Source: Chryseobacterium geocarposphaerae (lineage in GTDB: Bacteria > Bacteroidota > Bacteroidia > Flavobacteriales > Weeksellaceae). Taken from it: 64,000 nucleotides of DNA. Location of the stretch: NCBI RefSeq assembly GCF_002797535.1, contig NZ_PGFD01000001.1:558001-622000 (forward strand), written 5' to 3'. The notes below the pieces were generated by a model. The model saw only the letters and a list, made by a program, of their open reading frames with translations, had not been told where the DNA came from and searched no databases. Below, one piece after another: positions 41,759 through 61,749 of this stretch (within the stretch, counting starts at the first letter, position 1; each line of letters starts with the position of its first letter). The position numbers and the translations under genes are program-made.

Positions 41759-41807
41759 AAGTTTTTATATAGATAAACAAAGATAAACTGCATTCGGTCA
41801 CATTATA

Positions 41808-42362
41808 TTAACCATTATTCACTTCAACTGAATCTAATATGACACGTTTATTTAAGTAATTTTTCAGCGTTCTAATGGGAAGATAAGTAAACAATACCGA
41901 AAGTATTCCGGCTAAACTTCCGACCAAAATAGCCATTGCTGTCGGGTTTAGTTTATAATATTTTGATAAAATAAACTGGGCAAACAGCAAGCTGGATAAA
42001 ACCAATACACCTGTAACCAGTCCGTTTAAAATACTCAGTTTAGTCAGTAATTTTTTTAAATTAAGCTGATCATCGACTTCAAACTCAATTGCTTTTTGAT
42101 GTGCTGCATCGGTCACTCTTTTGATAATATCAATCGTAAGAACAACCGGTAAAAAAATAGCCATAGGTAAGGTAAGGCGAGCTAAACTCTGTGTACAGGC
42201 AAAAAAATGAGTATAGCCTAATTCATTAAAACTGGCATAAGCAATGATAAAATTAAAAAATACGTTCGGAATCAAATAGATAAGCATCCGCTTTTTCAGA
42301 AAGCGGTTGAGTGTTGTTTTTTTGAGTGGTTTTGGTTGAGCTTTTTTTATTTTAAATTTCAT
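41808..42362 (-). CDS. Four-helix membrane protein, end of the polyketide operon
   Basis: A 184-aa protein with a basic N-terminus (rich in Lys) and four hydrophobic segments (about 30-47, 63-85, 112-133, 140-163). No family is recognised. It overlaps the second acyltransferase gene by 4 nt (ATGA), so it is translated with the biosynthetic operon. A role in transport or in holding late-stage enzymes at the membrane is a guess from position. Confidence 0.7.
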   Translation of the reverse strand: MKFKIKKAQPKPLKKTTLNRFLKKRMLIYLIPNVFFNFIIAYASFNELGYTHFFACTQSLARLTLPMAIFLPVVLTIDIIKRVTDAAHQKAIEFEVDDQLNLKKLLTKLSILNGLVTGVLVLSSLLFAQFILSKYYKLNPTAMAILVGSLAGILSVLFTYLPIRTLKNYLNKRVILDSVEVNNG

Positions 42363-43603
42363 GACGTCAGGAGCTCAATAGCTTTATCTTTTATTTTTTT
42401 TGCATCTTCTTTCGGAAGAAAATCTTCATTAGACATAAAGGTGAAATCCATTTGCTGATTATAAGTCGTTACTACTAAAGTATTGGAATTCAGCCACGGA
42501 AATGCAACTGTCGGGCTGTAAATGGTTTCCAGCTTAAAATTTTTATACTCATTCGGAATATCTATTTTACCCATATTCGACAACGTAATATCATGTCCGC
42601 CTTTGCCGGATTTTAATAATGAAATCATACGATCAACAACCGGATGCATATTTTCACCCATCCACAGCAATTCCCTTGCTTCCGTCTTTCCTATTTTTTC
42701 AACTAAATCTTTCTTGATCTGTTGCGCATTTTCAAGTAAATTCTGCCCTTTTTTCAAAGACAATTCAACTGTCGGCGCAAATGCAAAGATATGATCTTGC
42801 TTGATTTCCGGAATAAAATTTCGAACATCTACCGGGCTTATCACTTTTCCTTTTGCCTTTTTACCCTGAAATTCTTTGAACGCTTCCATAAAGGCCGCAC
42901 ACAACAAAGAATGAACGGAAATCCCGTTGACTTTACATTTATCAACTATTTTTTTGGAAATAACAGTGTCAAGTTTTCTGTGAAGAGCGTAGTTTTTTCC
43001 GGAATTTCTTTTTTTACTTTTAGACTGAATGAAAAAGAATAATTTGGCCATAATTAAATATAATCTAGCTTTTCGCTGGTTTTTTTTCAGATTGAAATCA
43101 GCAGGCAGAAAATCATCAACGGAGCTGAATGTCTGATAAGAGCCCAATTCTGCAGAAGGATCATCCAGTAAAGAACAAAGTTCTCGTAGTAAGTTGATAC
43201 CGGTTGTTCCATCGCAGATAGAATGGGGCATTACCCAAAGAATTTCAGAAACAGCTGATCCTTTTACCCAAACAATCTGGACCAGTGGTTTTTTCGGATC
43301 TTCAAAAATTCTGTACCATTCATTTTCAGATTCGGACAGCCAGTCCTGATCTGTTTTTCGTTCAACAATACGGAGCGGAATTGGTAAAATATCATTTTCT
43401 TCAACAAAGAAGGGATATTTTGCGTTTTTATGATCAATATAGGCTCTTAGTAATGGATGTTTCCGCTGGATTTTATCTAAAGCAATTTTAAAATGATCTT
43501 CAGAAATTACCCCATTAATTTTAACTGTAAATACACAATTTACAGGAGTTTTAGAATCAACGTACATGATTCTTTCTACCATCATTAGTTTTCGTTTAAT
43601 CAT
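42359..43603 (-). CDS. Condensation/PapA-like acyltransferase 2
   Basis: The 414-aa protein has the condensation-domain acyltransferase fold of PapA/alcohol acyltransferase-type enzymes. The core motif reads PHSICDG (126-132): the catalytic second histidine (127), Asp131 and Gly132 remain, but the first His of HHxxxDG is proline. It is a diverged paralogue of the next gene upstream (shared WLxESxxEWYxxF, SPVDVRxFxxxIKxDHIFAF, LSNxGxIxIxxEYKxFxLExIxSPxV patterns). It likely moves an acyl group from a carrier to a hydroxyl or amine of the product. Confidence 0.75.
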   Translation of the reverse strand: MIKRKLMMVERIMYVDSKTPVNCVFTVKINGVISEDHFKIALDKIQRKHPLLRAYIDHKNAKYPFFVEENDILPIPLRIVERKTDQDWLSESENEWYRIFEDPKKPLVQIVWVKGSAVSEILWVMPHSICDGTTGINLLRELCSLLDDPSAELGSYQTFSSVDDFLPADFNLKKNQRKARLYLIMAKLFFFIQSKSKKRNSGKNYALHRKLDTVISKKIVDKCKVNGISVHSLLCAAFMEAFKEFQGKKAKGKVISPVDVRNFIPEIKQDHIFAFAPTVELSLKKGQNLLENAQQIKKDLVEKIGKTEARELLWMGENMHPVVDRMISLLKSGKGGHDITLSNMGKIDIPNEYKNFKLETIYSPTVAFPWLNSNTLVVTTYNQQMDFTFMSNEDFLPKEDAKKIKDKAIELLTS

Positions 43604-44867
43604 AGGCCGCTACAGATTCCAGTTTTTGTTTTATGATGGTAATGACTTCGTCACGAATTGCCAAAGCTTCAGTTTGAGGTAAATACCCTTCGCTTCCCAT
43701 GAAAGCAAAATCCATTTCTCCACGGAATGTGGAGGTTACCATTGTTGTTGTATTTCCCAAAGGTCCGATGACGGACGGACTGAATATGTTTTCCAGTGTA
43801 AATTCCTTGTATTCATGAGCAATTGGAATGCGACCCAAATTAGAAAACATACAATCATTGGTAGATTTTCCGTTTTTCAATAATTTAGTAAAATTCGTCA
43901 ATGCATCATGAGCAGATTCCATGACCATCATCGTGATGTAGGGATTTAATTTTGATGTTTTTTTCTCAACAGCTTCCTGCATCAGTTTTAAGTTTTCTTC
44001 AAAACCTAATTTTTTGTTTAAAGAGACCACAATCATCAATCCAAAAGCGAAAATGTGATCGGCTTTGATCTGATCAGCAAAACGTCTGATATCAACAGGG
44101 CATGAAACCTTATTAAAAGCCTTCTCTTTTCTGGTTTTTTGAAATGCTTTTAAGATTGTTGCACAGAGAAAAGTATTGACAGTCACTTTTTGAAATTTGC
44201 AATAATCAATCAGTTCTTTACTTGTCTCTTTATCAAACTTCCAGTTGATCAAATAATCGCTTTGTCGGTCAGTCGTTTTTTTATTAACAGGGATATATTT
44301 GATAGCCGTTGCAGCCAATCGCCCAATCATTTTTGCTTTAAATTGTTGCTTACGGTTGTTCAAAATTTCGTTGGGAACTACGTCATGAATTCCCAAAATC
44401 GGATCTTCAACGCCAATGTCGTAATTCGGATCGTCCAGTACTTTTAAAAATTCATCCAGAACAGCCATGGCAGAACCTCCATCACATAAGCAATGATGGA
44501 ACACAAACATCATATCTGAAATTTCTTCACCTTTGATCCAGACAAATCGCATGAGTGGCTGTTCTTTGTAATTAAACATTTTATACCACTCTTTTTTCGA
44601 TTCTTCCAGCCAGTCATTTTCATCTTTTCGGGCTAAAATCCGGATGGAAATTTTTACTTTTTCTGAAACCTCAAACCACGGAACATTCTTTTCATCATGT
44701 TGAATAACAGCCTTTAACCAAGGATGTTTATTCTGAATCTTTTCTAAGGCATACTGAATATCTTTCAAGACAAATGCTCCTCTTAACCTGAAAGGGATCA
44801 CCGTGTTGAAGGGCTCAGTACCGTCGCCAAGCAACATTCTTTCACCAAATAACAATCTTCTTTTCAT
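43596..44867 (-). CDS. Condensation/PapA-like acyltransferase 1
   Basis: A 423-aa enzyme of the condensation-domain superfamily with an intact HHCLCDG motif (His124, His125, Asp129, Gly130). There is no adenylation or thiolation domain, so it is not part of an NRPS; stand-alone enzymes of this kind (such as PapA5) esterify polyketides or transfer acyl groups from ACP or CoA. It overlaps the second copy by 8 nt. The two would be well suited to adding acyl chains to a glycosylated or hydroxylated lipid. Confidence 0.78.
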   Translation of the reverse strand: MKRRLLFGERMLLGDGTEPFNTVIPFRLRGAFVLKDIQYALEKIQNKHPWLKAVIQHDEKNVPWFEVSEKVKISIRILARKDENDWLEESKKEWYKMFNYKEQPLMRFVWIKGEEISDMMFVFHHCLCDGGSAMAVLDEFLKVLDDPNYDIGVEDPILGIHDVVPNEILNNRKQQFKAKMIGRLAATAIKYIPVNKKTTDRQSDYLINWKFDKETSKELIDYCKFQKVTVNTFLCATILKAFQKTRKEKAFNKVSCPVDIRRFADQIKADHIFAFGLMIVVSLNKKLGFEENLKLMQEAVEKKTSKLNPYITMMVMESAHDALTNFTKLLKNGKSTNDCMFSNLGRIPIAHEYKEFTLENIFSPSVIGPLGNTTTMVTSTFRGEMDFAFMGSEGYLPQTEALAIRDEVITIIKQKLESVAAYD

Positions 44868-44959
44868 ATGTAATTGTTTATTGTTTTTTAATGGCCATAT
44901 GGAATCGCTTATCTTTGTTATTCATTGTATCTAAATTGGTTAAGGGCGATTTCATAGGC

Positions 44960-47356
44960 TTACACAGGAACTAAAGTGGATTGTTTTACAAAATTTTCCA
45001 GCAATTCTACTGCGCGATCGTTTCCGCCGGCGTCAATTAAGCTTGATTGAACTTCTTTTGCAGCATTTCTGTATGCTGGATTTTCCAATAATTCAAAAAC
45101 AGTCTGTCGAAGTACATCTACACGCAATCTTTTATATCTTATGCTGATTCCGCAACCTGCTTTTTCAATCAGTTTTGCAATGTGAAAATGATCGTAAGCA
45201 ATAGGGGTAATCAACATGGGTAATCCGTTGGTGAAAGTATCATTTACGGTATTAAAACCACCATGACAAATCACGGCATCCATGTGAGGCATCAAAGCCG
45301 ATTGGGGCACGAAACTACTTACAATAAAGTTGGAAGGCCATTCTTCAAAAATTTCCGGTGGAGTAGCGGCAATGATGGTTACGGGTTGATCCGCAAACGC
45401 CGCAATCACTTTTTCGAAAAATGCTTTTCTGATATCCACCAATAATGTTCCCAATGAAACGAATATTTTAGGTGTTGTCGATGCATTCAGTTTATCCCAG
45501 TCAAAAGGTGCCGGATTTGGACGCCCTTTTACAGGCCCTACAAATTTCATGTGAGAAGGAACCTCATCAAAATCAGCAAATTTTTGGGAGGTAAAGATCA
45601 GATTCAAATGATGAGAATGAATGAAAATTCCCTCATCTTCAATTCCGACTTCTTTTTGAAGCTGCTTAATCAAATTCTGCTGCCATTCGAAAATTTTCGG
45701 GGCACTATTTTCTGTATCGCCCATTACGTCTGGGGGAACCGGTGTTGTCGTTACACACGGAATACTATTTTTGTGGGCAAATAAGGCTCCTCCGAAAGTG
45801 ATACAATCGTTCACGATAACATCGGGTTGCCATGCTTGGGTCAAAGTTTCCAAGCCGGGCATCATTATTTTGGCAAAAGGAGCGTAGGTTTCTTCCAAAG
45901 CCAGTTTCATGACTTCAGGACCTGAACAGGCAGGACCATCATCCTGTCTTTTTAAAATTCTGGCAATTTCATCCTGATAAGGAACTAAATCTTGTTCCGG
46001 ATAAAAGTAACTTCCGCCTTCCGGAATATGTTTATTGTCTAATGGTGTAATTCCAAACCATTTTACTTCGTGACCACGGGCAATTAAACTTGCTCCAACA
46101 CTCAAAGTAGGACTAATGTGTCCGAAAAACGGAGGAACAACAAATAAAAATTTAGACTTTGGTCTTTCCATTGTAGAATTGGAAATGGTATTTTCCAATA
46201 AATTGGCTGCTGTTGCGCTTCCTCCGGCTTCAATGAAAGATTGGCGGACCATTTCCGCAGCTTTTTTATATTCAGGATTGGTTAAAATATTTTGTACGGC
46301 TTCTTTTAAATGATGCGCTTTAAATCTGTTGAAATTCAGACGTTCTCCCGCTCCGGTACGTACAACACGTCCCGCAACATGCGATTGATCATACGCAATC
46401 GGAATCACCACCAATGGCAAACCGTTTGACAGCGTTTCGGAAACCGTATTGTGACCACCGTGAGAAACAACGCCGTCTAAATGAGGTAACAGATCTAATT
46501 GAGGAACCTGCTGATAAACCATAAAATTTTCCGGCCGTTCCTCAAAAAGCAGAGGGTCTGAAACCACAACAACCGTTAAGTTTTCATCTTTAAAAGCATC
46601 AATAACCTTTTGGAAAAATGCTCTTTTATGTTCGTGGTCGAAAGTTGTTCCGATGCTGACTAAAATTTTTTTTCTTTGGTTGCTGTTGAATTTTTCCCAG
46701 TCAAATTCCGAAGAAACGCGACGCTCGGTAAGAACCGGACCTGTAAATTTGAAATTAGATTTCAACTCCATTTCACCAAAGAAATATTGGGAGGTTAAAA
46801 CCAGTGTCAGTAAATCCGAACAATCCAATGCACGGTTTTCTTCAACACCTAATTCCTGTTGCAAAGCGATGATTTGTTTTTCCTCCCACTCATGAACTTT
46901 TGGAAGCTCATTCATGATTTTAATCGCAGCCGGAGCGGTTACCGTTGTAGCATAAGGCAAACCTAATTTTCTAGCCGCAATAGAAGCCGCAAACAACTGA
47001 TGATCGCCAATAACCAAATCAGGTTGATAGTTTTTTAATAAAGGAATAATTCCGTTATAGCAATGCCTGTTCAAAGGAATCAGCACATCTTCGTAAAGAA
47101 ATTTGATGCTGTCGATTCCATAGACTACTTTTTTAGAAATAATATCGAGATAATTTTCACTTTCTCTTTTTTCTTCGTCCGTCTGGTCGTACTGAATCAA
47201 TAATAATTCACCGCCTTCCGGAAGTTTATTTTTTAAATTCTGGTCGAGACTTATCCAGGCAACCTGGTGACCTCTTTCCAGAAGAGTAGCACCAATGCTT
47301 AATGTGGGATTGACATGACCAGTTAAAGGGGGAACTATAAATACAAATTTAGCCAT
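44960..47356 (-). CDS. Tandem-fused GT1 (MGT-type) glycosyltransferase
   Basis: One 798-aa frame contains two complete GT-B glycosyltransferases: residues 1-395 and 396-798. Each starts with a hydrophobic FxFVVPPxxGHxxPT segment and carries the donor-sugar motif HGGxNTVxxTxxNGLP (about 299-314 and about 700-715) and an IAYD pair. The second half begins at Met396 (46171) and could be an internal start, but no stop separates the halves. They match macrolide/zeaxanthin glycosyltransferases (MGT). It would attach one or two sugars to the polyketide or lipid acceptor. It overlaps the hydrolase gene by 8 nt. Single-domain proteins are usual; the fusion is rare. Confidence 0.85.
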   Translation of the reverse strand: MAKFVFIVPPLTGHVNPTLSIGATLLERGHQVAWISLDQNLKNKLPEGGELLLIQYDQTDEEKRESENYLDIISKKVVYGIDSIKFLYEDVLIPLNRHCYNGIIPLLKNYQPDLVIGDHQLFAASIAARKLGLPYATTVTAPAAIKIMNELPKVHEWEEKQIIALQQELGVEENRALDCSDLLTLVLTSQYFFGEMELKSNFKFTGPVLTERRVSSEFDWEKFNSNQRKKILVSIGTTFDHEHKRAFFQKVIDAFKDENLTVVVVSDPLLFEERPENFMVYQQVPQLDLLPHLDGVVSHGGHNTVSETLSNGLPLVVIPIAYDQSHVAGRVVRTGAGERLNFNRFKAHHLKEAVQNILTNPEYKKAAEMVRQSFIEAGGSATAANLLENTISNSTMERPKSKFLFVVPPFFGHISPTLSVGASLIARGHEVKWFGITPLDNKHIPEGGSYFYPEQDLVPYQDEIARILKRQDDGPACSGPEVMKLALEETYAPFAKIMMPGLETLTQAWQPDVIVNDCITFGGALFAHKNSIPCVTTTPVPPDVMGDTENSAPKIFEWQQNLIKQLQKEVGIEDEGIFIHSHHLNLIFTSQKFADFDEVPSHMKFVGPVKGRPNPAPFDWDKLNASTTPKIFVSLGTLLVDIRKAFFEKVIAAFADQPVTIIAATPPEIFEEWPSNFIVSSFVPQSALMPHMDAVICHGGFNTVNDTFTNGLPMLITPIAYDHFHIAKLIEKAGCGISIRYKRLRVDVLRQTVFELLENPAYRNAAKEVQSSLIDAGGNDRAVELLENFVKQSTLVPV

Positions 47357-48140: not shown

Positions 48141-48430
48141 TCGTAGATATAGTTGATAATCATACTTAAATCTAGGTTAATCAGCTCATCCAGATCCATT
48201 GAAGACAGCCATCCTGTAAAATCGATCTGCTCACCAAAATGTGCTTTGATTTTTTCCGAAAAAGAAACGATTTCGATACTGTCCATTTCCAGATCTTTCG
48301 TGAACGAACTTTCCGGCGTAATGTCCATTTCTTCAACAAATTCTTCACCGATAACTTCTGTGATGAAACCTTTTAAAAGATCAAATAATTCTTCGTGATT
48401 TAATTTTGCTGTAGTGTTTATAGTGTCCAT
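48131..48430 (-). CDS. Stand-alone acyl carrier protein
   Basis: A 99-aa acidic four-helix carrier with the phosphopantetheine site Ser51 in LEMDSIEIV. It is long for an ACP because of a 15-residue N-terminal extension. It overlaps the megasynthase gene by 13 nt and the hydrolase gene by 10 nt. Possible roles are carrying the starter chain, handing the product to the acyltransferases, or serving ketosynthase III. Confidence 0.9.
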   Translation of the reverse strand: MDTINTTAKLNHEELFDLLKGFITEVIGEEFVEEMDITPESSFTKDLEMDSIEIVSFSEKIKAHFGEQIDFTGWLSSMDLDELINLDLSMIINYIYECQ

Positions 48431-51400
48431 CCTATGATATAATTTTTATGTTTAATAGTTTTGATTTCTGTTTGGTTGATCCATAAAGAATCTTCTGTAA
48501 TTTTTTCGACTTCGAACCGTTTCGGGTTTCCTTTTAATCCTGTTCCGACGAATTTCCCGTAGGCTTCTTTAGCTACCCAGAATTTGGTCGTCCATTCTGC
48601 CTGATCTTTTCCTTTTAATAAGGCTAATTCGTTATTGGTAAAGACCAAATCGTAGAATCCTGAGCTTCGTTCTTCAATAATTTCCATATCGATTCCGACA
48701 GATTTTCCGCTTTTTGCAATTCCGACCGCATCTTTTCCTTTATGTGCCAAAGAAATGTGTATATCTTTCGTAGCATCTCCGATTAAGAACGGTTTTCCGA
48801 CCTCATCTTTTCCAACTTCAAAAGTGATCGGGAAGCAAGGGTGATTTTTTTCTTTTTTAAGAAGATTTCTCACGGCATCTTTCACCGCAACTCGGCTTAC
48901 CATATAGCTTTTTCTCTTGTTGGGAAGCAAGGTTTGGTGATATCTTTTTTCGGTTTGATTGAAATATCTTTTCAGAATAAAATCCCAAGAAGCAACCCTT
49001 GAATACGCCTGATGGAAGAAAAATACTTCGGGAGCAATTTCTTCGGAAAGACGGTTATGTAAAGGCGACATCGATACATTCCATAAAGCTGAATCGATTT
49101 CCAGGCGGCGGTTTTGCCATCCTGAAATTTTGCACCATACTTTTCCGTTTCTGGTTAAAAGAATATCACCGATGGCAAATTCATCATTCATTTCAGTAAG
49201 GCTGCACGTACATTCGAAAATCCCGTCCTGATCCTGTAAATCTCCGAAAAATTCAATGTCTTTTATTTTTACAGGGAACGCGATTCTGTCTTTTGTTAAG
49301 GTTAACTGCAACCAAAGTCCGAATAATTGTCCTGCGTTATCCAATAACGAGCCTTTTCCGCCATTTCCTTTGATCTTTCCGATAATTCCTTTCGTTCCGA
49401 CCTTTGAAACTTCCGTAATTCCCTGATATTTTTCACCGTGAAACATATGCATCTCGTAGATTTCTTCGGGAGTTCTTTCGATGGGTAATATTTCTCCGAT
49501 GTAAAGATTGAAGGTAGGATTCGGTCTTGCTGTTGAGGTTAATAAAACTTCAGCATTGGCAAAATTTTCAATATCTAAATAAGCATGGTTTTCCGATTTC
49601 CATTCACCTTTGACGGTTTTTTCGAAAGGTTTTGCCACATTCATCCATTGAAAAACACTTATGTTCATGATTTTATGAACCTGAGTTCCTTCAATTTCTG
49701 CTTGAGCAATTTCTGCCAACTGTTCGAAAATCATAGTCATTGGAATCACGGGTTCCATATCGGCAACTTCTGTCCAGCCTTTTGGCTGTCTTAGTAAGCT
49801 GTGGTCGATAAGGTAGGGATGAGTTTCCAACGTTACATACAATGTTTTCTCAAAGTTCTTGCTTATCTGAGCCTGAACTTTTGGTAATACAATATTCGGA
49901 ATTGAAACTTTCGGACGATTCTGGAATAAAGTTAAAACTTCTTCCTGCATACGGATCATATCTGAAATATTATCCTGAAATGCCTGAACCAGTGGATGCC
50001 CTGATTTTGCAACCGTTGCGGTAATCTTTTGATTCGGTGTATCAATTGATTTTGCTAATTGTTGAATCTCCTTAAAATCACGGATAATTGGTGAACCTAA
50101 TTCAAGTTTTATTCCTTTTCCAGATGATTTTTTGAATTGAGTCTGAATGTCTAAAAAGTCAAGGGCAACCGTTTTTCCTTCCACGAATAACGCTGCAACT
50201 ACTCGTTGAAATTGAGCCAATGCAGAACGCGTCGCAACGCTTGAAGCAATCGTGCTGAATGCTTTTCCTTTCAATGTATCATCAATAAACCCAATCAAAC
50301 CACCGGTTCCAACTTGAATGAAAAATCTTGCGCCTTCTTCGTATAATTTGTCCGTCAGTTCACGGAAACGAACGGGTTCAACAAGATGTTCCGCGCTCAG
50401 TTTTCGGATAGATTCCTGATCAGCCGGATAAGGTTCCAAAGTCGTTGCGGACCATAATGGAATTTTCGTCTGCTGAAACTGTGCTTTTTCCATTCCTGCC
50501 AAAATCACATCTAATTTATCAGCGATAAAAGGCGAGTGAAAACCTGACTGGAACGGCAATATCTGATGAAAAATCTGTTTTGATTTTAATATAGGAACCA
50601 ATTCATCCAAAGCTGAATTACTTCCGCAAAGAATCACCTGATTCGGGCAATTGTCATTAGAAATATAAATGTTAGGAATTTCTTCAATAATAGGTTTAAT
50701 GGTTTCAATTCCTGCTCCGATGGCGATGAATTTAGAATCTTTTAATTCAAAAGTTTCAGGGTTTAAAACATCAATTAAGGCCTTTACGGAATTTACTTCC
50801 GCCAATTCAGAAGAATAACCTGCAAGCCATTCTCCCAAACTGTGACCCGCATTCATATCAGGAATAATTCCCAATTTTTTTAATGAATTATCGAGAATAC
50901 TGCAGTTGTTGAAGATATTTAAAGCATCATTTAACAAACCTTCACCTTCTGTTTCAATCGGTGCGTTGATGTTGAAATAACGGCTTACACTTTCTACTTC
51001 ACCTTTTGCTAATCCGTCTAATCCTGGAAAAACAAAAGCCACTTTTTCGCCGTTTTGTAATAGAGGAGTGTTGGTGTACCAAATATCCTGCTTATTACGC
51101 CACGGATTGTTTTTAGCAACAATTTTAGTTGCTTTTTCAATTCTCGCAGGAGTCGGTTCGAATATCGCTATACGGAAATTTCCTTCTCCTACTGTTGTCT
51201 CGTTATTTTGTAAAGCGGTTAATAATTCTTCATGTGTTGGTCTTGCTAAGATTAAAACCTTATCTTTTTTAGGCATATCATACCCTTCCAATACCACGTG
51301 TGCATTGATTCCTCCAAATCCGAAAGCATTGACTGCAGCAACCTTTGGCAACCCTGTTTTCGACCAGCTTTTCGCTTCCTGAACAGGCTCGAATCTTGTA

Positions 51401-52653: not shown

Positions 52654-52674
52654 AAATTAAATTTAAAACAGAGA

Positions 52675-55600
52675 TTACCAGTTACTTCCAGACATGATTA
52701 ATACCTGACTTTCAGTTCCATATTTTATTTCATTCAGGAAAATTTCCTTCCCTTGATCCAATGGGATTAGAGATATACCTCTTCTTTCGTATTCTGTTTC
52801 AAGGGTTGGAGAAACCATTCCAGCTCCTTTCCAAGGTCCCCAATTGATGGAGATTACTTTTCCTTTTAATTTTTTATTTAAAGCATTCGCATAATCATCC
52901 AAAACGGAGTTTGCAGCTGCGTAGTCGGTTTGACCTTTATTCCCGTACACGGAAGCGATGCTTGAAAACAACACTACAAACTGACAATCCGTGCGAAGTT
53001 GTTCTGCCAATACACGAAGCGGTTTCACTTTAGTATCGAAAACACGTCCGAAAGAGCTTGTTGTTTTTTGCTTGAATAATTTATCTTCCAGCAATCCTGC
53101 ACCGTGAATAACTCCATCTAAACGGTTATATTTTTCGTAAATAGAATTAATTAATTCAGACAAACCATTTTCATCACAAAGGTCTAATGATTGGTAAACA
53201 ATCGTATTTCCCAATTGTTCCATATCGCGGATTGTACGTAGAATCTGATTGTTTTTATAAACTTTTATCGTTTCTTTTTCAATCTCAGAAGGTGAAGTGA
53301 ATGTTCCTGATTTGATAAGATAGGCTCTTATTTCTTCCTTGGTTTTAAATGCTTCCAGTTCGCTGTTTGTCGCCTGATTTCTCGGATCTGCAGATCTTCC
53401 GACCAAAACATACGTACAAGGATAAGCCTGTGACATGTGTTTTACCAATTCTGAAGTAATTCCCTGAGCGCCTCCAAGAACCAATACAACGGAATTTGTA
53501 TCCAATTGAATTTGAGCTTCGCTTAAACCTGTCGATAAAGGCGACGGAATGATATCTACTTTGTGTCTTTTGTCGTTTTTATAAATAACTTCGGCAGGTT
53601 TATCTTTCGTTAAAATTTCCTTTAACGTAATTTCAGCGATATTCTCAATTTGTTGAGGAGAAGTAAGGCTGATTAATCTGCAATTCGTCTGTTCAAACTC
53701 ACGGGCCAGGCTTTTGAAAAGCCCCGGATGTCCTTTGTAATGACGCAAAAGAGTAGTATCTGTCAATTCCTGAACATGAGCCGGAATATCGGAAATCAGA
53801 TAAATCCATTTTGCTTTATCAAGATCCATTTTTTTGATTAAATCAACATGGTCGATGATGTTGTGATTGGCGGAAGATGAGAATAAATCAAGAATAATTA
53901 ACCCGTCAAAATCGGTTAAATCTTTATCAGAATCAATTAATTCCGCAATGGCACCATGTTTTTCAAGCTCATTTTTAATCGCTAATGTCTGATTGCTGTC
54001 ATTTTGAGTGATGGCAAAACGTTTTCCGTGAAGAATTTCTGTGTTTTCCGTTAAGGAAATATCAGTCGGAGTCAAATCAAAACGAAGACGGGATAATGCA
54101 CTTTGTTCCGGTTCAGAAGGCGCATTTCCGCTCATTTCATGAATCCAAGAAGCTAATCCGTTCAATGTTTTAATCGCAGCTAATTTTTCCATTAAATCAT
54201 CCGCTTGTTCCATATCTCCACCGAAGCCGATTTTAGTTTTCAAATCGCCGATAATTTCCATACGTTTGATAGAATCGATGCTTAAATCTGCCTCTAAATC
54301 AAGGTCTAAACCTAACATTTCTTTAGGATAACCCGTTTTATCGCTTACAATATTTAAAATCGTCGTCTGAAGTTCTTCAAGAGAAAATCCAGCTTGAGCT
54401 TGAGAAGTTGAAGCCTGAGTTTCTGTAACTCCAACTTTTTCTGTTGTATTTGATGCTAATGAATGTTCTGTTAACCAGGAAACTAACCCGTTTAATGTTT
54501 TAATTCCGGCTAATTGTTCCATAATTGTATCTTCATTCGCTGTGTTTGAAGAGAAAGAGCCTAATTCAGCTTTCAGGGTACCAATAATTTCAACTCTTTT
54601 AATGGAATCAATACTTAAATCTGCTTCCAAATCCATTTCCATACCCAGCATTTCGTGAGGATAACCTGTTTTATCACTTACGACTTGTAGCAATAATGTT
54701 TTAATATCTTTTGTCGGAGCCTGTTTTGCAGAAACAGTAATGGTTGCTTGACTAACGTTGTTTGTTGATGGAAAAACCTCTTGAGTGGGAATATGCTGAG
54801 TTGGAATATTTTGAATCGGAGCTTGATAAACAGGAGTCTGATGAACCTGCAGATTCTGTCCCAGGAATGAAAGCATCACATCACGTTGCGCCTGAATCAT
54901 CATTTTCATGCTGTTTAAATATTCCTGCAACATACGTTCTGCATTCGTCTGATTTTCAGCGACAGGTGTTTGGGTATTTTGAGTGAAATTGTTCATTTGA
55001 AGTGGATTTATGATGGGTAATGCACCATTAACAGGGAGTGAACCTGTCGTTGGATGAGCTGCCTGTCCGTTCACGCGCCAGATGGCAGGACTTTTCTTGT
55101 ACAGTTCTGGCTGATCGATTTGAATGGATTTTGCATTTCGGCCATCAAAAAGTTTAGCAATGTTAAAACTTCGACCTGTCCCCAAATATTGGGCAAGTGT
55201 TGAAAGAAAATGTGTTAATTTATTCGTGTTATTATCTTCAACAAACAACGTCAACTGGTCTTTTTCCAAGCAAGATTTTGTTAATCCTGTCAATACTTTT
55301 CCGGGACCAACTTCGATAAAAATTCTTGCACCGTCATTGTACATCGCCTGAAGTTCTTCCACGAATCTTACGGGCTGTACCAAATGATCTGTTAATCTTT
55401 CTTTGATTTCGGAAGTGTTTGTCGGATAGATTTCTGCTGTCGTATTTGACCAAACCGGAATCTGCATTTCTTTGAAAGGAACGTTTTCTAAAACAGTTTG
55501 ATATAAACCTTTAGATTTCACCAGTAAAGGACTGTGGAACGCACAGGCAACTTCCAGTTTTTTTGCTGAAATTCTTTCCTGTTTCAAAACTTCCATTAAT

Positions 55601-58600
55601 TTGTTGATGGCTTCCGTAGTTCCTGCCACCACGCATTGAGTCGGAGCGTTGTAATTTACAGGATAACAACCTTCAACCTGTGCTAAAATCGGCTGCAAGT
55701 TTTCTTTCGTTGCGCTTACTGCAATCATAGAACCCGGATCGCCGCCTTCAACAGAGTTTAAGATCGATTTTGCTCTTTGAATACTTAAGTCAACCAATTT
55801 TTCTTCCTCAAAAACGCCTGCGAAACATAATGCCGGTAATTCTCCGTAGCTGTGTCCCGCTAACATATCGGGAACAATTCCGATGGATTGTAAGAATTTA
55901 GCCAAAGCCAAATCAACAATTCCTAAAAGCGGTTGCGCTAAACGCGTATCTTTTATGGTTTCTTTTTGTTGTTTTAAGGTGGCATCATCGAATGTTTTTG
56001 AAGGGAAAATTACTTTTTCTAATTCTGGATAAGAATCGATTAATTTTCGCATTTCAGGGAAGGCAACGAATAAATCGCGTGCCATATTGATACGCTGACT
56101 GCCTTGTCCAGGGAATAGGAAAGCTACTTTACCTTCTTTTTTATTAACGGTAAATGTGTCTTTGCTTTCAATTCCGGATAAAGCCAGTTCAATGTTCATC
56201 ATCAAATGTTCTGTTGTATCGGCAACGATGCTCAACTGAATCTGTTTTTCTGAACTTGTCGCCAAGCTGTAAGCAATATCTTTTAAGGCAATACTGTCAT
56301 TAACTTCAAGTAAAGATTTAATTTGATTTAATTGAATTTTAGCCTCATCATACGTATTTCCACGGAATACAAATAATTCCGAAGGCCAGGATTGTAATAC
56401 CGCAGAATCATCTTCTTTAGGATGATTGGCGATTACTGTATGGAAATTTGTTCCGCCAAAACCGAAGGCGCTGATTCCCGCATAACGGTTTTTGTCAGAC
56501 CAAATTCCGGTTTCTGCATTGAAAGCAAAAGGACTTGTTGTTGCATTGTAGTAGGCATTCGGCTGCTGAAGGTGAATGGTCGGAGGTTTTACACCGTGAT
56601 AAACTGCCAGTGAAGCTTTAATTAAGCCTGCCAAACCAGCTGCACATTTTGTATGTCCGATTTGAGTTTTTACCGAACCTAAATGCGTCTGTCCCGGCAA
56701 AGCTCCTGAACGGCTGAATAAGTTGGTCAATGCACTCAATTCGGTTTTATCACCGACCACAGTTCCTGTTCCGTGAGCTTCAACCAAGCCAACCGATGAA
56801 GGACTGATTCCGGCTTGTGTGTAAGCTCTTTCCAGCGCACGAACCTGTCCGATTTTTCTCGGAGCAGTCAATCCAAGTGCTTTTCCGTCACTCGAACCAC
56901 CGACACCTTTGATCACAGAATAAATTCTGTCGCCGTCTTTTACGGCGTCTTCATATCTTTTTAACACTAAGATTGCAACGCCTTCTCCCAAAGCGATTCC
57001 GTCTGCTTCACTATCGAAAGTAGCACATCTTCCTTTTCTGGAAAGCGCGTGTGTACTGGAAAACATCAGGTAATCATTGATTCCGTTGTGTAAATCTGCG
57101 CCGCCGGCCAACACCATATCTGATTTACCTAAGACCAATTCCTGACAAGCCAGATCAATCGCTGCCAAAGAAGAAGCACAGGCTGCATCTACGGTATAAT
57201 TTCTTCCGCCTAAATCTAAACGGTTGGTAATTCTTCCCGCGATAACATTCGCTAAAATTCCCGGGAAAGAATCTTCTGTGGTATGTGGAAAAGCTTCCTT
57301 AACTTCTTCATGAAGCTCACCGAAAACCTGCTTGTAGTATCCTCTAAAACTATAGCTGTTGGCTAAATCATTTCCGCCTTCCGCACCGATAATTACGGAA
57401 ATATTTTCTTTGTTAATATGTTTTTCGCCATACCCCGCATCGTCCATCGCACGTTTTGCTACCAATAAAGTTAACAGTTGTGTTGGCTCGATCGCAGCAA
57501 GAGATTGTGGTGGAATACCAAATGCTAACGGATCAAAATCGATTTTGGGAATAAATCCGCCCCATTTTGAATGGGAAACATCGGCTTCGTTAGAATCGGG
57601 ATGATAGTATAATTCTTTATTCCATCTTTCGTCCGGAACTTCAGTCACGCTGTCTTTTCCAAGAACGATATTTTTCCAGTATTCCTCTAAATTTTTGGCA
57701 TTAGGGAAAATACATTCCATTCCGATAATGGCAATATCTAAAGGTTTTTCTACCGAAACAGGAGCTTCCGAAAGCCCGGCTTCCTGAATGTATTTTTGAT
57801 TTTGAATGCTTACATTTTCGTGTAGTTCATCCAGAGAAATTACTTTATCATGCATTGTCGCTACCTGACCGATCATATACATTCCCAAATCCAGTTGATC
57901 TTCTTTAGGAATATTGACCAATTGATCACCTTGACGTTCAACACCCTTTGCTGCAATTCTTAAACGGCCGACATTTAATTTTTCAAGCTGTTCCCAAACT
58001 TCTTTTTTATCGGTTCCGGCTGCGATTAATTTAGATTTTTCCTCATTAAAATATTTAGCAAAATTCGTGTCTAAGCAACGTGTTTCATGTCCTGGAGCAG
58101 TTTCCAGTAAAACGGTTTCTTTCGCCTGCATCGCCTGCAACTGGAATTCTTCCTGAATCGCGCCATATTCTACGGCTTCTTTCGTGTACAAATAGGCAGT
58201 TCCCATTAAAACTCCGATTTTTACACCTCTTGCAGCTAACGGAGCTGCCATAATGGAAACAAACGCAGTCGAAAAATCATTATGAATTCCGCCTGCAAAA
58301 AATATGCTGATGTTTTCAGGATGATCTTCTTTTAAGATTCTTTCAATCTGTTTTTCCCAAAGAACGATGCTTGAAAGCGGACCAACATGACCGCCACATT
58401 CACGACCTTCGAAAATGAAATTCGTAGCGCCTTCTTTAAGGAAAATATCCAAAAGGGTGGGAGAGGGAACGTGTAAAAATGTTTTAATTCCTGCTTTTTC
58501 GAACACTTTAGCTTGGGCGGGCCTTCCTCCTGCGATCAAAACGACAGATGGTTTTGCTTCTAAAATATAAGAAGTTTGCTCATCTCTCAGTTCTTGTGGT

Positions 58601-59673
58601 GCAAATCCTAAAATTCCGACACCCCAGGTTTTTTCTCCGGCTAAATTTTTAGTATCAAATACCAAAGATTTTGCGGCATTACCTTTTAATAAAGATAGAG
58701 CAACAAATGGTAAAGCTCCTGATTCGGCAACTGCATTGGCGAATGCAGGGACATCACTCACACGGGTCATCGGACCTTGTGCGATGGGATATTTTAAGTT
58801 GAGATCTTTTGCTAAAATATTTTCCTGATTGATAATCTGAAGTGATTTTGCCTGTTTCAGATGACCATACATGGCTTCTTTATATGCAAAAACTAATCTT
58901 TTCAGATTTTTAAAATCTTCATACAGATCGATTGCTAAAGAAATATCCTGTCCCATAGGAATATAGCTCTTATTTATATCAAGATCTTTGAAATATTCTG
59001 TAAGTTCTTCGGATGTAATATTTTCCGGTAATACAGGGGAATTTGGTCTTATCAAGACGCGGTGACTGGCTATAATTTTTGTTTCCGTACCGTTTAGTTT
59101 TGAACACAGGTCTTTGATTTCCATAGGAACAGAAGTTTCCGGAAATAAGGCAAGCTGGCTATCCAGAACTATACCGGCGGCTCCAAGAGATTTTGCAGCA
59201 GCAGCTGCGTGAAGCCCGATTCCGCCCTGCACCCAGACAGGAATGGATTTTATTTCTCTAATCACGCGCTGGAAAAGTACAAACGTCGATTCGTATCCTA
59301 TCAATCCGCCTGCTTCGTTACCTTTGATGATGATACCTTTTGCTCCTAATTCCTCAGCTTTTTTTGCATCCTCTAAACTGCTCACCTGATAGAGGATTGG
59401 CAGATTCCATAAAGGATTTGCGGGAATTTGGATAGGCTGAATCACAAACTGTACCTTTTCCGAAATGTTGAGGGATGTTAGGTTTTCATTTGAAATATGA
59501 ATACCATAATATGGTATATTGTTTTTATCAAGTAGATCAAGTGATTCCTGAGAAATCACCAACTCATGTCCTAAGCTTAAGACAGGGAACGCATCTGCTT
59601 CATAGAGTTTAATAATAAGATTAACATCCGGTTTTTCAAAAGGAGTTAATCCAATAATGGTTAAGTTTTTCAT
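52675..59673 (-). CDS. Type I polyketide/PUFA-like synthase: NMO-NMO-KS-AT-ACP-ACP-KR
   Basis: A 2,332-aa megasynthase. The N-terminal 620 residues contain two TIM-barrel nitronate-monooxygenase/PfaD-like domains (about 1-270 and 290-560; the second has GRECGGHVGP), which in PUFA synthases act as trans enoyl reductases. The KS (about 640-1070; Cys832 in DAACASS, plus HGTGT and GHTKCAAG) and AT (about 1160-1480; GQG, GHSYGE with Ser1275, QRA arginine) are intact. Two carrier domains carry Ser1690 and Ser1801 in DSIKRxEI, the PUFA-type signature. A ketoreductase (about 1900-2332) has Tyr2251 in TDYAAAN. The start is the Met at 59673, which directly precedes a beta strand; the frame runs 17 codons further. 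It begins the biosynthetic operon. Confidence 0.92.
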   Translation of the reverse strand: MKNLTIIGLTPFEKPDVNLIIKLYEADAFPVLSLGHELVISQESLDLLDKNNIPYYGIHISNENLTSLNISEKVQFVIQPIQIPANPLWNLPILYQVSSLEDAKKAEELGAKGIIIKGNEAGGLIGYESTFVLFQRVIREIKSIPVWVQGGIGLHAAAAAKSLGAAGIVLDSQLALFPETSVPMEIKDLCSKLNGTETKIIASHRVLIRPNSPVLPENITSEELTEYFKDLDINKSYIPMGQDISLAIDLYEDFKNLKRLVFAYKEAMYGHLKQAKSLQIINQENILAKDLNLKYPIAQGPMTRVSDVPAFANAVAESGALPFVALSLLKGNAAKSLVFDTKNLAGEKTWGVGILGFAPQELRDEQTSYILEAKPSVVLIAGGRPAQAKVFEKAGIKTFLHVPSPTLLDIFLKEGATNFIFEGRECGGHVGPLSSIVLWEKQIERILKEDHPENISIFFAGGIHNDFSTAFVSIMAAPLAARGVKIGVLMGTAYLYTKEAVEYGAIQEEFQLQAMQAKETVLLETAPGHETRCLDTNFAKYFNEEKSKLIAAGTDKKEVWEQLEKLNVGRLRIAAKGVERQGDQLVNIPKEDQLDLGMYMIGQVATMHDKVISLDELHENVSIQNQKYIQEAGLSEAPVSVEKPLDIAIIGMECIFPNAKNLEEYWKNIVLGKDSVTEVPDERWNKELYYHPDSNEADVSHSKWGGFIPKIDFDPLAFGIPPQSLAAIEPTQLLTLLVAKRAMDDAGYGEKHINKENISVIIGAEGGNDLANSYSFRGYYKQVFGELHEEVKEAFPHTTEDSFPGILANVIAGRITNRLDLGGRNYTVDAACASSLAAIDLACQELVLGKSDMVLAGGADLHNGINDYLMFSSTHALSRKGRCATFDSEADGIALGEGVAILVLKRYEDAVKDGDRIYSVIKGVGGSSDGKALGLTAPRKIGQVRALERAYTQAGISPSSVGLVEAHGTGTVVGDKTELSALTNLFSRSGALPGQTHLGSVKTQIGHTKCAAGLAGLIKASLAVYHGVKPPTIHLQQPNAYYNATTSPFAFNAETGIWSDKNRYAGISAFGFGGTNFHTVIANHPKEDDSAVLQSWPSELFVFRGNTYDEAKIQLNQIKSLLEVNDSIALKDIAYSLATSSEKQIQLSIVADTTEHLMMNIELALSGIESKDTFTVNKKEGKVAFLFPGQGSQRINMARDLFVAFPEMRKLIDSYPELEKVIFPSKTFDDATLKQQKETIKDTRLAQPLLGIVDLALAKFLQSIGIVPDMLAGHSYGELPALCFAGVFEEEKLVDLSIQRAKSILNSVEGGDPGSMIAVSATKENLQPILAQVEGCYPVNYNAPTQCVVAGTTEAINKLMEVLKQERISAKKLEVACAFHSPLLVKSKGLYQTVLENVPFKEMQIPVWSNTTAEIYPTNTSEIKERLTDHLVQPVRFVEELQAMYNDGARIFIEVGPGKVLTGLTKSCLEKDQLTLFVEDNNTNKLTHFLSTLAQYLGTGRSFNIAKLFDGRNAKSIQIDQPELYKKSPAIWRVNGQAAHPTTGSLPVNGALPIINPLQMNNFTQNTQTPVAENQTNAERMLQEYLNSMKMMIQAQRDVMLSFLGQNLQVHQTPVYQAPIQNIPTQHIPTQEVFPSTNNVSQATITVSAKQAPTKDIKTLLLQVVSDKTGYPHEMLGMEMDLEADLSIDSIKRVEIIGTLKAELGSFSSNTANEDTIMEQLAGIKTLNGLVSWLTEHSLASNTTEKVGVTETQASTSQAQAGFSLEELQTTILNIVSDKTGYPKEMLGLDLDLEADLSIDSIKRMEIIGDLKTKIGFGGDMEQADDLMEKLAAIKTLNGLASWIHEMSGNAPSEPEQSALSRLRFDLTPTDISLTENTEILHGKRFAITQNDSNQTLAIKNELEKHGAIAELIDSDKDLTDFDGLIILDLFSSSANHNIIDHVDLIKKMDLDKAKWIYLISDIPAHVQELTDTTLLRHYKGHPGLFKSLAREFEQTNCRLISLTSPQQIENIAEITLKEILTKDKPAEVIYKNDKRHKVDIIPSPLSTGLSEAQIQLDTNSVVLVLGGAQGITSELVKHMSQAYPCTYVLVGRSADPRNQATNSELEAFKTKEEIRAYLIKSGTFTSPSEIEKETIKVYKNNQILRTIRDMEQLGNTIVYQSLDLCDENGLSELINSIYEKYNRLDGVIHGAGLLEDKLFKQKTTSSFGRVFDTKVKPLRVLAEQLRTDCQFVVLFSSIASVYGNKGQTDYAAANSVLDDYANALNKKLKGKVISINWGPWKGAGMVSPTLETEYERRGISLIPLDQGKEIFLNEIKYGTESQVLIMSGSNW

Positions 59674-60690
59674 TGTGTTGTTGGTATTGAAATGATGGAA
59701 GGGGGATTTCACAATAAACATCAAAACTTACCTATGGATAAATTGATAGTTTATTATGAAAGCATAAAAATAGTTAATTTTTATTATATTTTCAATAATA
59801 AACAATATTTAATAATAATTTTTTAACATTAATGAAATATGACATTTAAATATCTGATAATAAATTGTTTGTATTTATTTGTTCCTTTTTATTTATATAT
59901 ATATTTATTATACATAGAAATTTAATTTCTGATATAATTGCTTTTGTATGTCTTTAATTAGCGTCTTTATTAAAATTAAATCCTTTTTTTTCATTAAACA
60001 GTGATTAAAAGTAGCTGAGATGGAAGAATTTATTTCTGATATATTTATAATAATAAAGGTTATTTAATAATAATTTATTAACACAAGAATAACTATCTAT
60101 ATACTGAATGTGTATAGTTTATAGTCGATTGTCAGAATTAAGAATGTCGTTTAGTAGGTATGGTAAACAAATATATAAATAAAATAAAAATATTTCAATG
60201 TTTTGAGAGTTGTTTTTAATTTTAAAATATATGATACGTAAGCTTCATAAAGATTTTAATAGTTTTTTTACATCTATCAGATGTAATTTTTAGCTTTTTA
60301 GGGCTTTATTTTGATAGAGATTTATCAATTTTTTAAGCTTCTGTTTCATTTGACTATGAAAAATCATCTTCATAAAAGATCTCTTCATTCAATTACATTG
60401 TTCCATTGAAAGAGGTAAAACCAATGTATTGAATCGTGCAGTAAGGTATTATAAATTCGCTGCTAAAATCAATAGAAAAACAATACTAAACCAATAAAAT
60501 AATCTACTTCTTTACATTATGTATCTCATTGAGGCATCAAGCGTAAAAAAGTATTAATAATTCTATAATAAATAGAAAAAAAGGGTTTGTTACTGATATA
60601 TTGCAAATCAAATTTTGAAAATAAATTTCATGTAGGGACATGACAAGGCAGCTAACCTTAACTGAAATAAAATTTTAGATTTAACGGATT
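59674..60690. promoter_or_regulatory. 1-kb AT-rich control region of the polyketide operon
   Basis: No gene is seen. The stretch is very AT-rich. It contains a 23-bp direct repeat (TATTTAATAATAATTT at 59806 and 60061, 22 of 23 bases equal, ending TTAACA) and a second repeated word TTTCTGATATA (about 59926 and 60033). A minus-strand TAAGTTTTG near 59722-59730, close to TAnnTTTG, would start the transcript about 40 bp before the synthase. The size suggests regulator binding or nucleoid-protein silencing. Confidence 0.45.
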
Positions 60691-61749
60691 CTAAAATTGA
60701 TAAACAAAAGCATTAATATTCATTCCTGCACCTACAGAAGCAAATAAAACTACATTTCCTTTTTCTAATTGATGTTCTTTCAATTCTCCCTTTAAGATCA
60801 TGGCGAGTAGAGAAGGAATGGTTGCCACACTGCTATTTCCTAATTTATCAATTACCATCGGCATTATATTCGGTGGCAGTGGTGTATTGTACAGTTGATA
60901 AAATCTTTCTACGATCGCTTCATCCATTTTTTCATTGGCCTGATGAATAATGATTTTATCTAAATCATGAATTGAAAATCCACTTTTATCCAGGCATTGT
61001 TTCATTGCTTCCGGAACATTGGTAAGAGCAAATTCATAGATCTTTCTGCCATCCATTTTGATGTATTTTACATCCGGACAGTTTTCATTATTATATGATT
61101 TTCCAAAGTATAAATAATCTTTTTCTTTATAGGTAAAAGAAGCAGACAAATGAGATTGAATTCCGGATCCGTCTTCAACGGATTCTAAAACAACGGCACC
61201 TGCACCATCTGCATAGATCATGCTGTCTCTGTCGTGAATATCAGAAACTCTGGAAAGTGTTTCGGCTCCAATAACCAGACATCTTTTTGCTATTCCGGAT
61301 TTGATAAAAGCATTGGCCTGAATTACCGCTTCAATCCATCCCGGACAACCGAATAATACATCATAAGCAACACAAAAATTGTTTTTGATTTGTAAGGAAT
61401 GCTTCACTCTTGAAGCCAGGCTGGGAACCATATCTGACTGAATTGTACCAAACTTTACATCTCCAAAATTATGGGCAAAAATGATATAGTCTAAGGTTTC
61501 AGGATCTATACCTGCATTTTCGATAGCCTGTTGAGCGGCAATGAGACCCAAATCCGAAGTCACTTCATTGCTGTGAGCATAGCGTCTTTCTACAATACCT
61601 GTTATTTTTTGTAATTTTCTGGTGATAGAAGCGTTATCTTCTTTTAAAGCATCTCCTTGCTCATTTAGGAAAATATGTTTGTCGAAAAATAAATTGGTAA
61701 TGGTTTCTGAAGGGATGTAATTACCTACGCCGATGATTTTGCTTGTCAT
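60691..61749 (-). CDS. Beta-ketoacyl-ACP synthase III (FabH-like)
   Basis: The 352-aa condensing enzyme has the catalytic triad Cys135 (FGCPGWIEA), His269 (IIHQANEK) and Asn305 (LGNSSVAT). The residues around the cysteine differ from housekeeping FabH, and the N-terminal 50 residues have an extended segment, so it is probably a specialised starter-loading or chain-forming enzyme. It is transcribed towards the synthase operon but separated by 1 kb. The type is also found in flexirubin/dialkylresorcinol clusters, but the partner genes of those are missing here. Confidence 0.88.
   Translation of the reverse strand: MTSKIIGVGNYIPSETITNLFFDKHIFLNEQGDALKEDNASITRKLQKITGIVERRYAHSNEVTSDLGLIAAQQAIENAGIDPETLDYIIFAHNFGDVKFGTIQSDMVPSLASRVKHSLQIKNNFCVAYDVLFGCPGWIEAVIQANAFIKSGIAKRCLVIGAETLSRVSDIHDRDSMIYADGAGAVVLESVEDGSGIQSHLSASFTYKEKDYLYFGKSYNNENCPDVKYIKMDGRKIYEFALTNVPEAMKQCLDKSGFSIHDLDKIIIHQANEKMDEAIVERFYQLYNTPLPPNIMPMVIDKLGNSSVATIPSLLAMILKGELKEHQLEKGNVVLFASVGAGMNINAFVYQF

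Follow-up and report, generated by a model that had tools for sequence, protein, structure and literature searches.

Bacterial synthases related to the polyunsaturated fatty acid (PUFA) synthases PfaABCD(E) have been described in several papers, cited here on the basis of parts of their text. Type N, a cluster for a pfa-like secondary lipid synthase listed without a product, is found in Chitinophaga pinensis and Chryseobacterium gleum, and Type M of the same survey lists Renibacterium (Shulse & Allen 2011, PMC3098273). Fused pfaDA and pfaBC–phosphopantetheinyl transferase (PPTase) genes have been reported from Renibacterium and from hybrids of polyketide synthases (PKSs) and non-ribosomal peptide synthetases (NRPSs) in Flavobacteriales (JACS Au 2026, PMC13291983). 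In the heterocyst glycolipid (hgl) island of cyanobacteria, an iterative pfa-like synthase and the glycosyltransferase HglT give a long-chain glycolipid (PMC11804610). Here we analysed a stretch of 64,000 nucleotides from Chryseobacterium geocarposphaerae (contig NZ_PGFD01000001.1; hereafter the window), part of a 4.11-Mb genome, and describe an eight-gene operon in which genes for a pfa-like synthase are followed by genes for sugar- and ester-forming enzymes. The operon is a genuine, conserved lipid-type biosynthetic unit, and a GT1 glycosyltransferase gene downstream marks the ketosynthase (KS) clade to which its synthase belongs. What is unusual is the combination of parts together with this clade-wide link to GT1, built on a core of a kind already published. 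The product is probably an acylated diglycoside of a long-chain polyketide or fatty-acyl lipid, a reading to which we assign a probability of roughly 0.6.

The operon and its ketosynthase clade

The eight genes are tightly spaced on the minus strand from 59673 to 41808, in the order pksA, pksB, acp, hydrolase gene, double glycosyltransferase (GT) gene, papA, papB and a gene for a membrane protein of 184 amino acids (aa); the successive gaps between them are 21, −13, −10, −8, 92, −8 and −4 bases. Open reading frames (ORFs), domains and motifs bear out the activities that an initial annotation, made from the sequence alone, had named for these eight genes, including the sugar- and ester-forming enzymes that it saw added to a pfa-like synthase (GT1 and PapA-like motifs are present). 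Motifs are intact in both KSs (C-H-H), both acyltransferases (ATs), three acyl carrier proteins (ACPs), the ketoreductase (KR), both GT halves, the hydrolase and both PapA-like proteins. All nine Chryseobacterium genomes examined have the eight genes in the same sequence, as does G354, which comes from another family of the order; the operon is therefore not a chance arrangement.

The search for pksA covered 116 relatives besides the genome of the window. A full-length match was found in 38 of 69 genomes of the same genus and in none of 47 genomes from other families of the order; one further congener has the match in two parts, and another, a 75% complete genome, has it in fragments. The 38 full-length matches are frames open for 2339 aa or more, with 81–95% identity. 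Counting the genome of the window itself, pksB is present in 36 of 197 genomes of the family (E ≤ 1e-120; 7 of them Apibacter), in 28 of 395 of the order (E ≤ 1e-100) and in 4 of 395 of the phylum (E ≤ 1e-120), and a protein search further names Sphingobacterium, Mucilaginibacter, Pedobacter and Flavobacterium. The pksA and pksB of G354 are 75% and 80% identical to those of the window, values that would fit transfer between families. Identity to the window varies along the operon of G008 (loci L049 and L050), from 95% in pksB and 86% in pksA to 71–72% in papA and papB, which looks like recombination within the operon.

A KS phylogeny had been proposed as a check in the initial annotation. As run here, with relatives and a few plasmid references (84 rows; quick IQ-TREE with SH-aLRT support only), it places the window KS in a clade of 57 rows (SH-aLRT 99) drawn from Bacteroidota, Bacillota, Actinomycetota and one Chloroflexota, with the Persicobacter, Rhodococcus, Beijerinckia, Methylosinus, cyanobacterial and planctomycete rows outside. 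Six of 90 KS rows were left out: L104 and L106, which are rows under G handles, and L132, L142, L143 and L147, in which the only KS stretch of at least 380 residues is of the pksB type.

We called GT1 present where tblastn matched any of three query GTs (E ≤ 1e-4) no more than 6.5 kb downstream, a threshold by which divergent GTs are counted as absent. GT1 was found in 35 of the 50 scorable rows of the clade, including 12 of 15 in an actinobacterial subclade, and was lacking in the other 15; 7 rows have too little downstream sequence to be scored. The members that bear it are Bacteroidota, Actinomycetota and a metagenome-assembled genome (MAG) of Chloroflexota (Dehalococcoidia), and Bacillota members were scored as lacking it. 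Outside the clade, GT1 was found at none of 21 scan loci (7.5–24.9 kb long) and none of four plasmid reference loci. The distribution takes 5 changes on the tree, whereas 200 label shuffles never needed fewer than 17 and averaged 25.4; because such shuffles ignore relatedness, GT1 can be said to track the tree, and a need for GT1 is not implied. No description of this link was found in the literature searched, in which subscription journals were largely outside coverage.

The wider cassette was followed with a scan of named genomes, using patterns from six Apibacter-group pksB sequences. The best 80 of 435 confirmed stretches correspond to 75 loci, none of them from Chryseobacterium; rank reflects likeness to an Apibacter protein, and the scan is therefore no census. 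Both the enoyl reductase (ER) and the dehydratase (DH)–PPTase regions are present in 58 of these loci. Forty-nine of the 58 have at least 3 kb of sequence downstream of pksB, in which an ACP occurs in 32, a hydrolase in 37 and a GT1 in 26. This tally and that of the tree differ at three loci: L165 (3.4 kb downstream) is unscored on the tree and counted as GT1-free among the 49, and L129 and L140 (less than 3 kb downstream, GT1 present) enter the tree tally alone. The order pksA–pksB–ACP–hydrolase–GT1 recurs in Apibacter, Dysgonomonas, Mucilaginibacter, Aquimarina and Kribbella, and a Streptomyces plasmid is annotated, in order, with a PKS, a KS protein, an ACP, an alpha/beta-hydrolase, a glycosyltransferase and a methyltransferase.

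What follows the shared genes varies. GT1 copies number one, two (separate or fused) or seven, and GT1 matches elsewhere within the 49 loci occur in L136 only, from its own array; in this Bacteroidales MAG, seven successive GT1-like genes follow the synthase, ACP and hydrolase from 15397. PapA-type genes occur in Chryseobacterium, Flavobacterium, Mucilaginibacter and a Chitinophagales MAG, and the small membrane protein is present in 3 of the 49 loci (Mucilaginibacter L122 and two Aquimarina). A membrane protein of about 525 aa, of the Apibacter type, is found in 7 of the 49; it lies at 15219–16784 in L104, with equivalents in Apibacter, Dysgonomonas and a Prevotella MAG, replaces the PapA and small membrane genes, and has no Pfam family above cut-off. 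The next genes were identified for two GT1-free loci: MacB/FtsX twice, HlyD, TolC and MatE in L124 (Tannerellaceae), and an ABC/MacB protein in L138 (Listeria). The pksA and pksB frames of L138 (Listeria cornellensis) are broken into several ORFs; those of the L. grandensis copy (L145) are broken up less. The carriers Apibacter, Dysgonomonas, Azobacteroides and Symbiothrix (among L115–L189) are gut symbionts of bees and termites.

Component proteins and limits of the unit

Table 1 Coordinates of the operon genes, their domains and the neighbouring KAS III gene in the window.
Feature	Positions	Strand	Evidence
pksA, 2332 aa, ER-KS-AT-ACP-ACP-KR iterative megasynthase (PfaD+PfaA-like)	52675..59673	-	Domain and motif searches
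PksA ER region, NMO/FabK-type barrel (about residues 285-572) with a partial second barrel-like region before it (about residues 90-190)	57787..59673	-	
PksA KS, C-H-H present	56401..57741	-	Domain and motif searches
PksA AT, GHSYGE	55270..56130	-	Domain and motif searches
PksA ACP1, DLSIDSIKR, approximate bounds	54469..54696	-	Motif
PksA ACP2, DLSIDSIKR, approximate bounds	54136..54363	-	Motif
PksA KR	52828..53490	-	Domain and motif searches
pksB, 1411 aa, KS-AT-DH-PPTase (PfaB/C/E-like fusion)	48418..52653	-	Domain searches
PksB KS, C-H-H present in the window	51283..52644	-	Domain and motif searches
PksB AT core, GHSLGE	50308..50886	-	Domain and motif searches
PksB DH, divergent PKS-type double hotdog	49084..49866	-	Pfam near-match and predicted fold
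PksB PPTase domain (ACPS)	48457..48702	-	Domain search
acp, free acyl carrier protein, 99 aa	48131..48430	-	Domain and motif searches
Alpha/beta-hydrolase, 263 aa	47349..48140	-	Domain and motif searches
Fused double GT1, one ORF	44960..47356	-	NCBIfam MGT, 379.8 (cut-off 260); motifs
papA, condensation/PapA-like acyltransferase, HHCLCDG	43596..44867	-	Domain and motif searches
papB, condensation/PapA-like acyltransferase, HSICDG	42359..43603	-	Domain and motif searches
184-aa membrane protein, four long predicted helices	41808..42362	-	Predicted fold, mean pLDDT only 75
KAS III (FabH-like), outside the conserved unit	60691..61749	-	Domain search and relatives

PksA scores above the cut-off of the NCBIfam PfaA model TIGR02813 (1065.2 versus 1010.1 bits). 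Its ER passes the Pfam cut-off for the NMO family and matched FabK structures, and stays below the cut-off of the FabK model TIGR03151 (139.2 versus 453.1); no PfaD model was among the matches listed (25 of 87 families). The gene more likely begins at ATG 59673 than at TTG 59724, the start given by the ORF tool, because the protein from ATG 59673 aligns from its own residue 1 in 10 of 10 relatives and because the longer protein meets a stop codon, somewhere along the match, in 6 of its 38 full-length matches.

The KS of PksB is eroded in several relatives. All three C-H-H residues are gone in A. muscae; Cys is replaced by Glu and the first His by Asn in A. mensalis and an Apibacter MAG; and single replacements occur in a Flavobacteriaceae MAG (L117, first His to Asn), a Chitinophagales MAG (L129, Cys to Phe) and G568 (Cys to Thr). 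Matches to PksB start only at query residue 447–449 in A. adventoris, Actinokineospora xionganensis, a Renibacterium MAG and Haloechinothrix alba, and the KS is therefore missing from these four. Such decay suggests that the KS of PksA is likely the main condensing enzyme and that the KS of PksB may be a partner drifting towards a role like that of a chain-length factor (CLF). This loss is not unique, as CLF or KS domains are reported missing in other pfa-like clades (JACS Au 2026, PMC13291983).

The DH of PksB falls just under the cut-off of the Pfam PS-DH family (22.8 versus 23.7 bits), and sequence comparison with solved structures returned nothing credible. A model built from 45 sequences (mean pLDDT 92.9, pTM 0.89) resembles PKS dehydratases or PKS fragments in all 50 PDB matches listed, at query TM-scores of 0.55–0.65, and its residues H22 and D176 (H951 and D1105 of PksB) are invariant across the 45 sequences. 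The predicted fold thus indicates one PKS-type double hotdog rather than tandem FabA-like domains. Pfam found no FabA-like domain (PF07977) in the operon proteins, and the two FabA-like matches of the genome sit outside the operon. With a single DH of predicted PKS type and no FabA-like domain in the operon, cis polyenes of the eicosapentaenoic acid (EPA) or docosahexaenoic acid (DHA) type would not be expected, and a product of this type seems unlikely.

The ‘tandem glycosyltransferases’ of the initial annotation are indeed two GT1 units, joined in one ORF rather than encoded by separate genes, with halves that are 38% identical; Apibacter, Dysgonomonas and Mucilaginibacter have a separate gene for each. 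In the window, the donor motif closes with YDQ in the N half and with YDH in the C half. DQ in the first GT and DH in the second are also present in nine Chryseobacterium genomes, G354 and Mucilaginibacter (11 of the 12 PapA-bearing loci examined besides the window), and both GTs end the motif in DQ in the four Apibacter-group loci in which both were read; one motif was read in L161, L108, L119 and L120, and none in seven further loci. Gln or His at the end of this motif sets glucose or galactose in plant GT1s and, by analogy, the DH of the acylated branch could mean that the second sugar is galactose rather than glucose. The two PapA-like proteins are 35% identical to each other and both keep HxxxDG; of the catalytic motif HHxxxDG, PapA has the complete form and PapB retains the second His and the Asp. 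PapB scores above the cut-off for alcohol acetyltransferases (PF07247; 28.7 versus 22 bits). A Pfam search with the 184-aa membrane protein gave no family above cut-off.

The initial annotation had counted a β-ketoacyl-ACP synthase III (KAS III) as a ninth member. The gene lies about 1 kb upstream of pksA, beyond an A+T-rich gap, and is a general one: all 17 other genomes searched have it (best matches of 62–98%), including 7 that lack the operon. It adjoins the operon in the window only and in 0 of 10 other carriers, was not found in the approximately 3.5 kb fetched upstream of pksA in nine Chryseobacterium relatives (the contig of G354 ends there), and lies about 31 kb away in the closest relative, G055. 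We therefore ruled it out as the starter enzyme of the unit. At the other end, the 2–3 kb past the last operon gene in 10 genomes gave no DNA match to the left flank of the window; the unit thus occupies different sites, and its genes hold together independently of their neighbours. A TolC–HlyD–ABC2 set at 33.4–38.2 kb was ruled out as a dedicated exporter, as 4 of 14 genomes have its HlyD gene and two of those four lack the operon.

Upstream of pksA, the A+T-rich stretch of 1 kb (59674–60690; 21.9% G+C) matches the two closest relatives, G055 and G028, over about 560–620 bases at 77–80% DNA identity and is possibly a long leader or regulatory region. In G020, G010 and G002 (loci L059, L055 and L062), an ORF of about 50 codons lies about 230–240 bases upstream of pksA. 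Its first part closely resembles the N terminus of PksA, and it may be either a leader peptide or the relic of a duplication; of the nine Chryseobacterium relatives, these three were the ones read by eye, and the ORF is absent from the window. An Rfam search of the window at gathering thresholds gave no matches, and scans for promoters and terminators over 41500–61000 gave counts close to the shuffled means (61 versus 55.2 and 16 versus 15.7, respectively).

Product of the operon

The scheme that we infer, in its substrates, order of steps and class of product as well as in the roles of the hydrolase and membrane protein and in export, is as follows. PksA and PksB would form one iterative type I synthase, with ACPs armed by the PPTase of PksB and a chain extended with malonyl units by the KS and AT of PksA. 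The pattern of reduction in each cycle would depend on three domains, the KR and the PfaD- or FabK-like ER of PksA and the predicted PKS-type DH of PksB, giving stretches that may be saturated, trans-unsaturated or hydroxylated rather than the all-cis pattern of EPA and DHA, because no FabA-like isomerase is present; the polyene nature given to the product in the initial annotation is possible. The chain would then pass to the free ACP and be released or transferred with the aid of the alpha/beta-hydrolase, acting as a thioesterase or acyl-transfer enzyme. The first GT1 half could place a sugar on a hydroxyl or the carboxyl of the chain and the second half another sugar, and PapA and PapB would form acyl esters on sugar hydroxyls; mycobacterial Pap enzymes esterify hydroxyls with acyl chains. 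The small membrane protein may help membrane insertion or transport.

Several observations weigh against an acylated diglycoside. The GTs of the window match macrolide-type GT1, and no dedicated exporter is linked to the operon. The acylating enzymes are under the cut-offs of PapA_C (PapB 26.2 and PapA 19.8 versus 30 bits) and of the NCBIfam PapA5 model (36.1 and 33 versus 396 bits), and PapA-like matches occur in only 2 of the 49 scan loci (Mucilaginibacter L122 and Chitinophagales L161), so that acylation is lineage-specific. The clade itself includes rows scored without GT1 (15 of 50), 6 of the 35 GT1-bearing rows carry the same eight-gene operon, and the KS tree is a quick one with SH-aLRT support only and few named references.

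The macrolide-family GT1s (with MGT above cut-off), the PKS type of the DH and the exporter genes after two GT1-free relatives would also fit a glycosylated polyene, pigment or antibiotic, for which most enoyl reductions would be skipped and which would be a secreted small molecule rather than a membrane or surface lipid. However, PksA has an NMO/FabK-type ER above the Pfam cut-off and is itself above that of the PfaA model, and the two PapA-like acyltransferases suggest ester-linked acyl chains, so we consider this unlikely. The double GT resembles macrolide-inactivating and self-immunity models, below their cut-offs (183 versus 700 and 142.1 versus 700 bits), and might protect the producer rather than decorate its product; but GT1 occupies the corresponding position in Bacteroidota, Actinomycetota and the Dehalococcoidia MAG, in varying copy number, and the PapA-like enzymes directly after the GT need an acceptor, which makes self-protection improbable.

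A still smaller chance falls to a true PUFA synthase (EPA-, DHA- or arachidonic acid-like) that serves phospholipids and has incidental downstream genes, as the PfaA score of PksA and the PUFA-making Bacteroidota already known (Psychroflexus, Type D; PMC3098273) might suggest. All 10 genomes examined keep the downstream genes together with the synthase, and the operon has no FabA-like domain, no KS–CLF pair and two tandem ACPs. Persicobacter makes PUFA, and the window KS is separate from the Persicobacter reference on the tree. Least probable of all is an operon that is decayed or silent in the genus: pksA is patchy (full-length in 38 of 69 congeners, one split and one in pieces), but the motifs are present and the frames of those 38 genomes remain open and conserved.

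With an acylated diglycoside as the preferred product, we further suggest, tentatively and at somewhat less than even odds, that the KS clade of fused pfaDA/pfaBC–PPTase synthases began as an old system for making glycolipids, with a core synthase, free ACP, hydrolase and GT1 and a head group varied by lineage through the number of GT1s, the ~525-aa membrane protein (Apibacter and Dysgonomonas) or PapA-type acylation. Type N, and probably also Type M, pfa-like synthases were published in 2011 and still lack an assigned product. The GT1 link of the clade turns this into a testable prediction that the products are glycosides, and indicates where to look: among sugar-bearing lipids that, in Chryseobacterium, would also be acylated. 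The loci form a natural series in which a single synthase core is joined to differing head-group genes.

Comparison with known systems

The initial annotation read the locus as the activities of PfaABCD in another gene split. A pfa-like iterative synthase it is, sharing with PfaABCD(E) the KS–AT–ACPs–KR array, a PPTase and a score above the TIGR02813 cut-off, together with an ER that may be of the PfaD type, but it is no mere regrouping. PksA has two ACP motifs, compared with the 4–6 tandem ACPs of PUFA synthases (PMC3098273, PMC13291983). In place of the KS–CLF pair of PfaC, PksB has one KS, with C-H-H present, and in place of two DH/isomerase domains it has one predicted double hotdog of PKS type. 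The DH/isomerase domains of PfaC are FabA-like (PF07977). The DH type, the lack of a KS–CLF and the number of ACPs rule out a canonical PUFA synthase, from which the window further differs in its fusions and its added sugar and ester genes. An enediyne PKS, which is a single polypeptide of KS-AT-ACP-KR-DH-PPT, is ruled out by architecture (two polypeptides, an ER and a second KS–AT). The Pap acyltransferases of PKS-derived mycobacterial lipids belong to the condensation superfamily, carry HxxxDG and are encoded beside a PKS, all of which applies to PapA and PapB; these two come from a different phylum and score under the PapA-specific cut-offs.

No product, and no account of the GT and PapA genes, was found for this cluster in the literature searched, in keeping with the initial annotation, which could name no counterpart; a core of its kind, however, had been seen before. 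The C. herbae genome paper, in the part covered, gives an antiSMASH region 2.2 (‘hglE-KS, T1PKS, terpene’; 495,527–554,653) with no similar known cluster, and pksA of G062, probably the same genome, lies inside these limits at 515,482–522,525, so that by coordinates region 2.2 is probably the operon. Type N shares with the window a Chryseobacterium host, a pfa-like core and the lack of an assigned product, and the window core is probably Type N, an agreement in genus and kind of core only. The word ‘glycosyltransferase’ is absent from the main text of the Type N paper, and the parts covered do not name GT1, PapA-like or membrane genes (PMC3098273). The hgl island likewise couples an iterative pfa-like synthase to a glycosyltransferase, which makes it a functional analogy only; its gene set is another one, and PapA-like genes do not figure in the parts of the paper covered (PMC11804610). 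Closest in gene split are the pfaDA/pfaBC–PPTase systems, whose synthase is divided as in the window; as described in the parts covered, they stand near NRPS/PKS lines, whereas that of the window stands with GT1s and PapA-like enzymes (PMC13291983).

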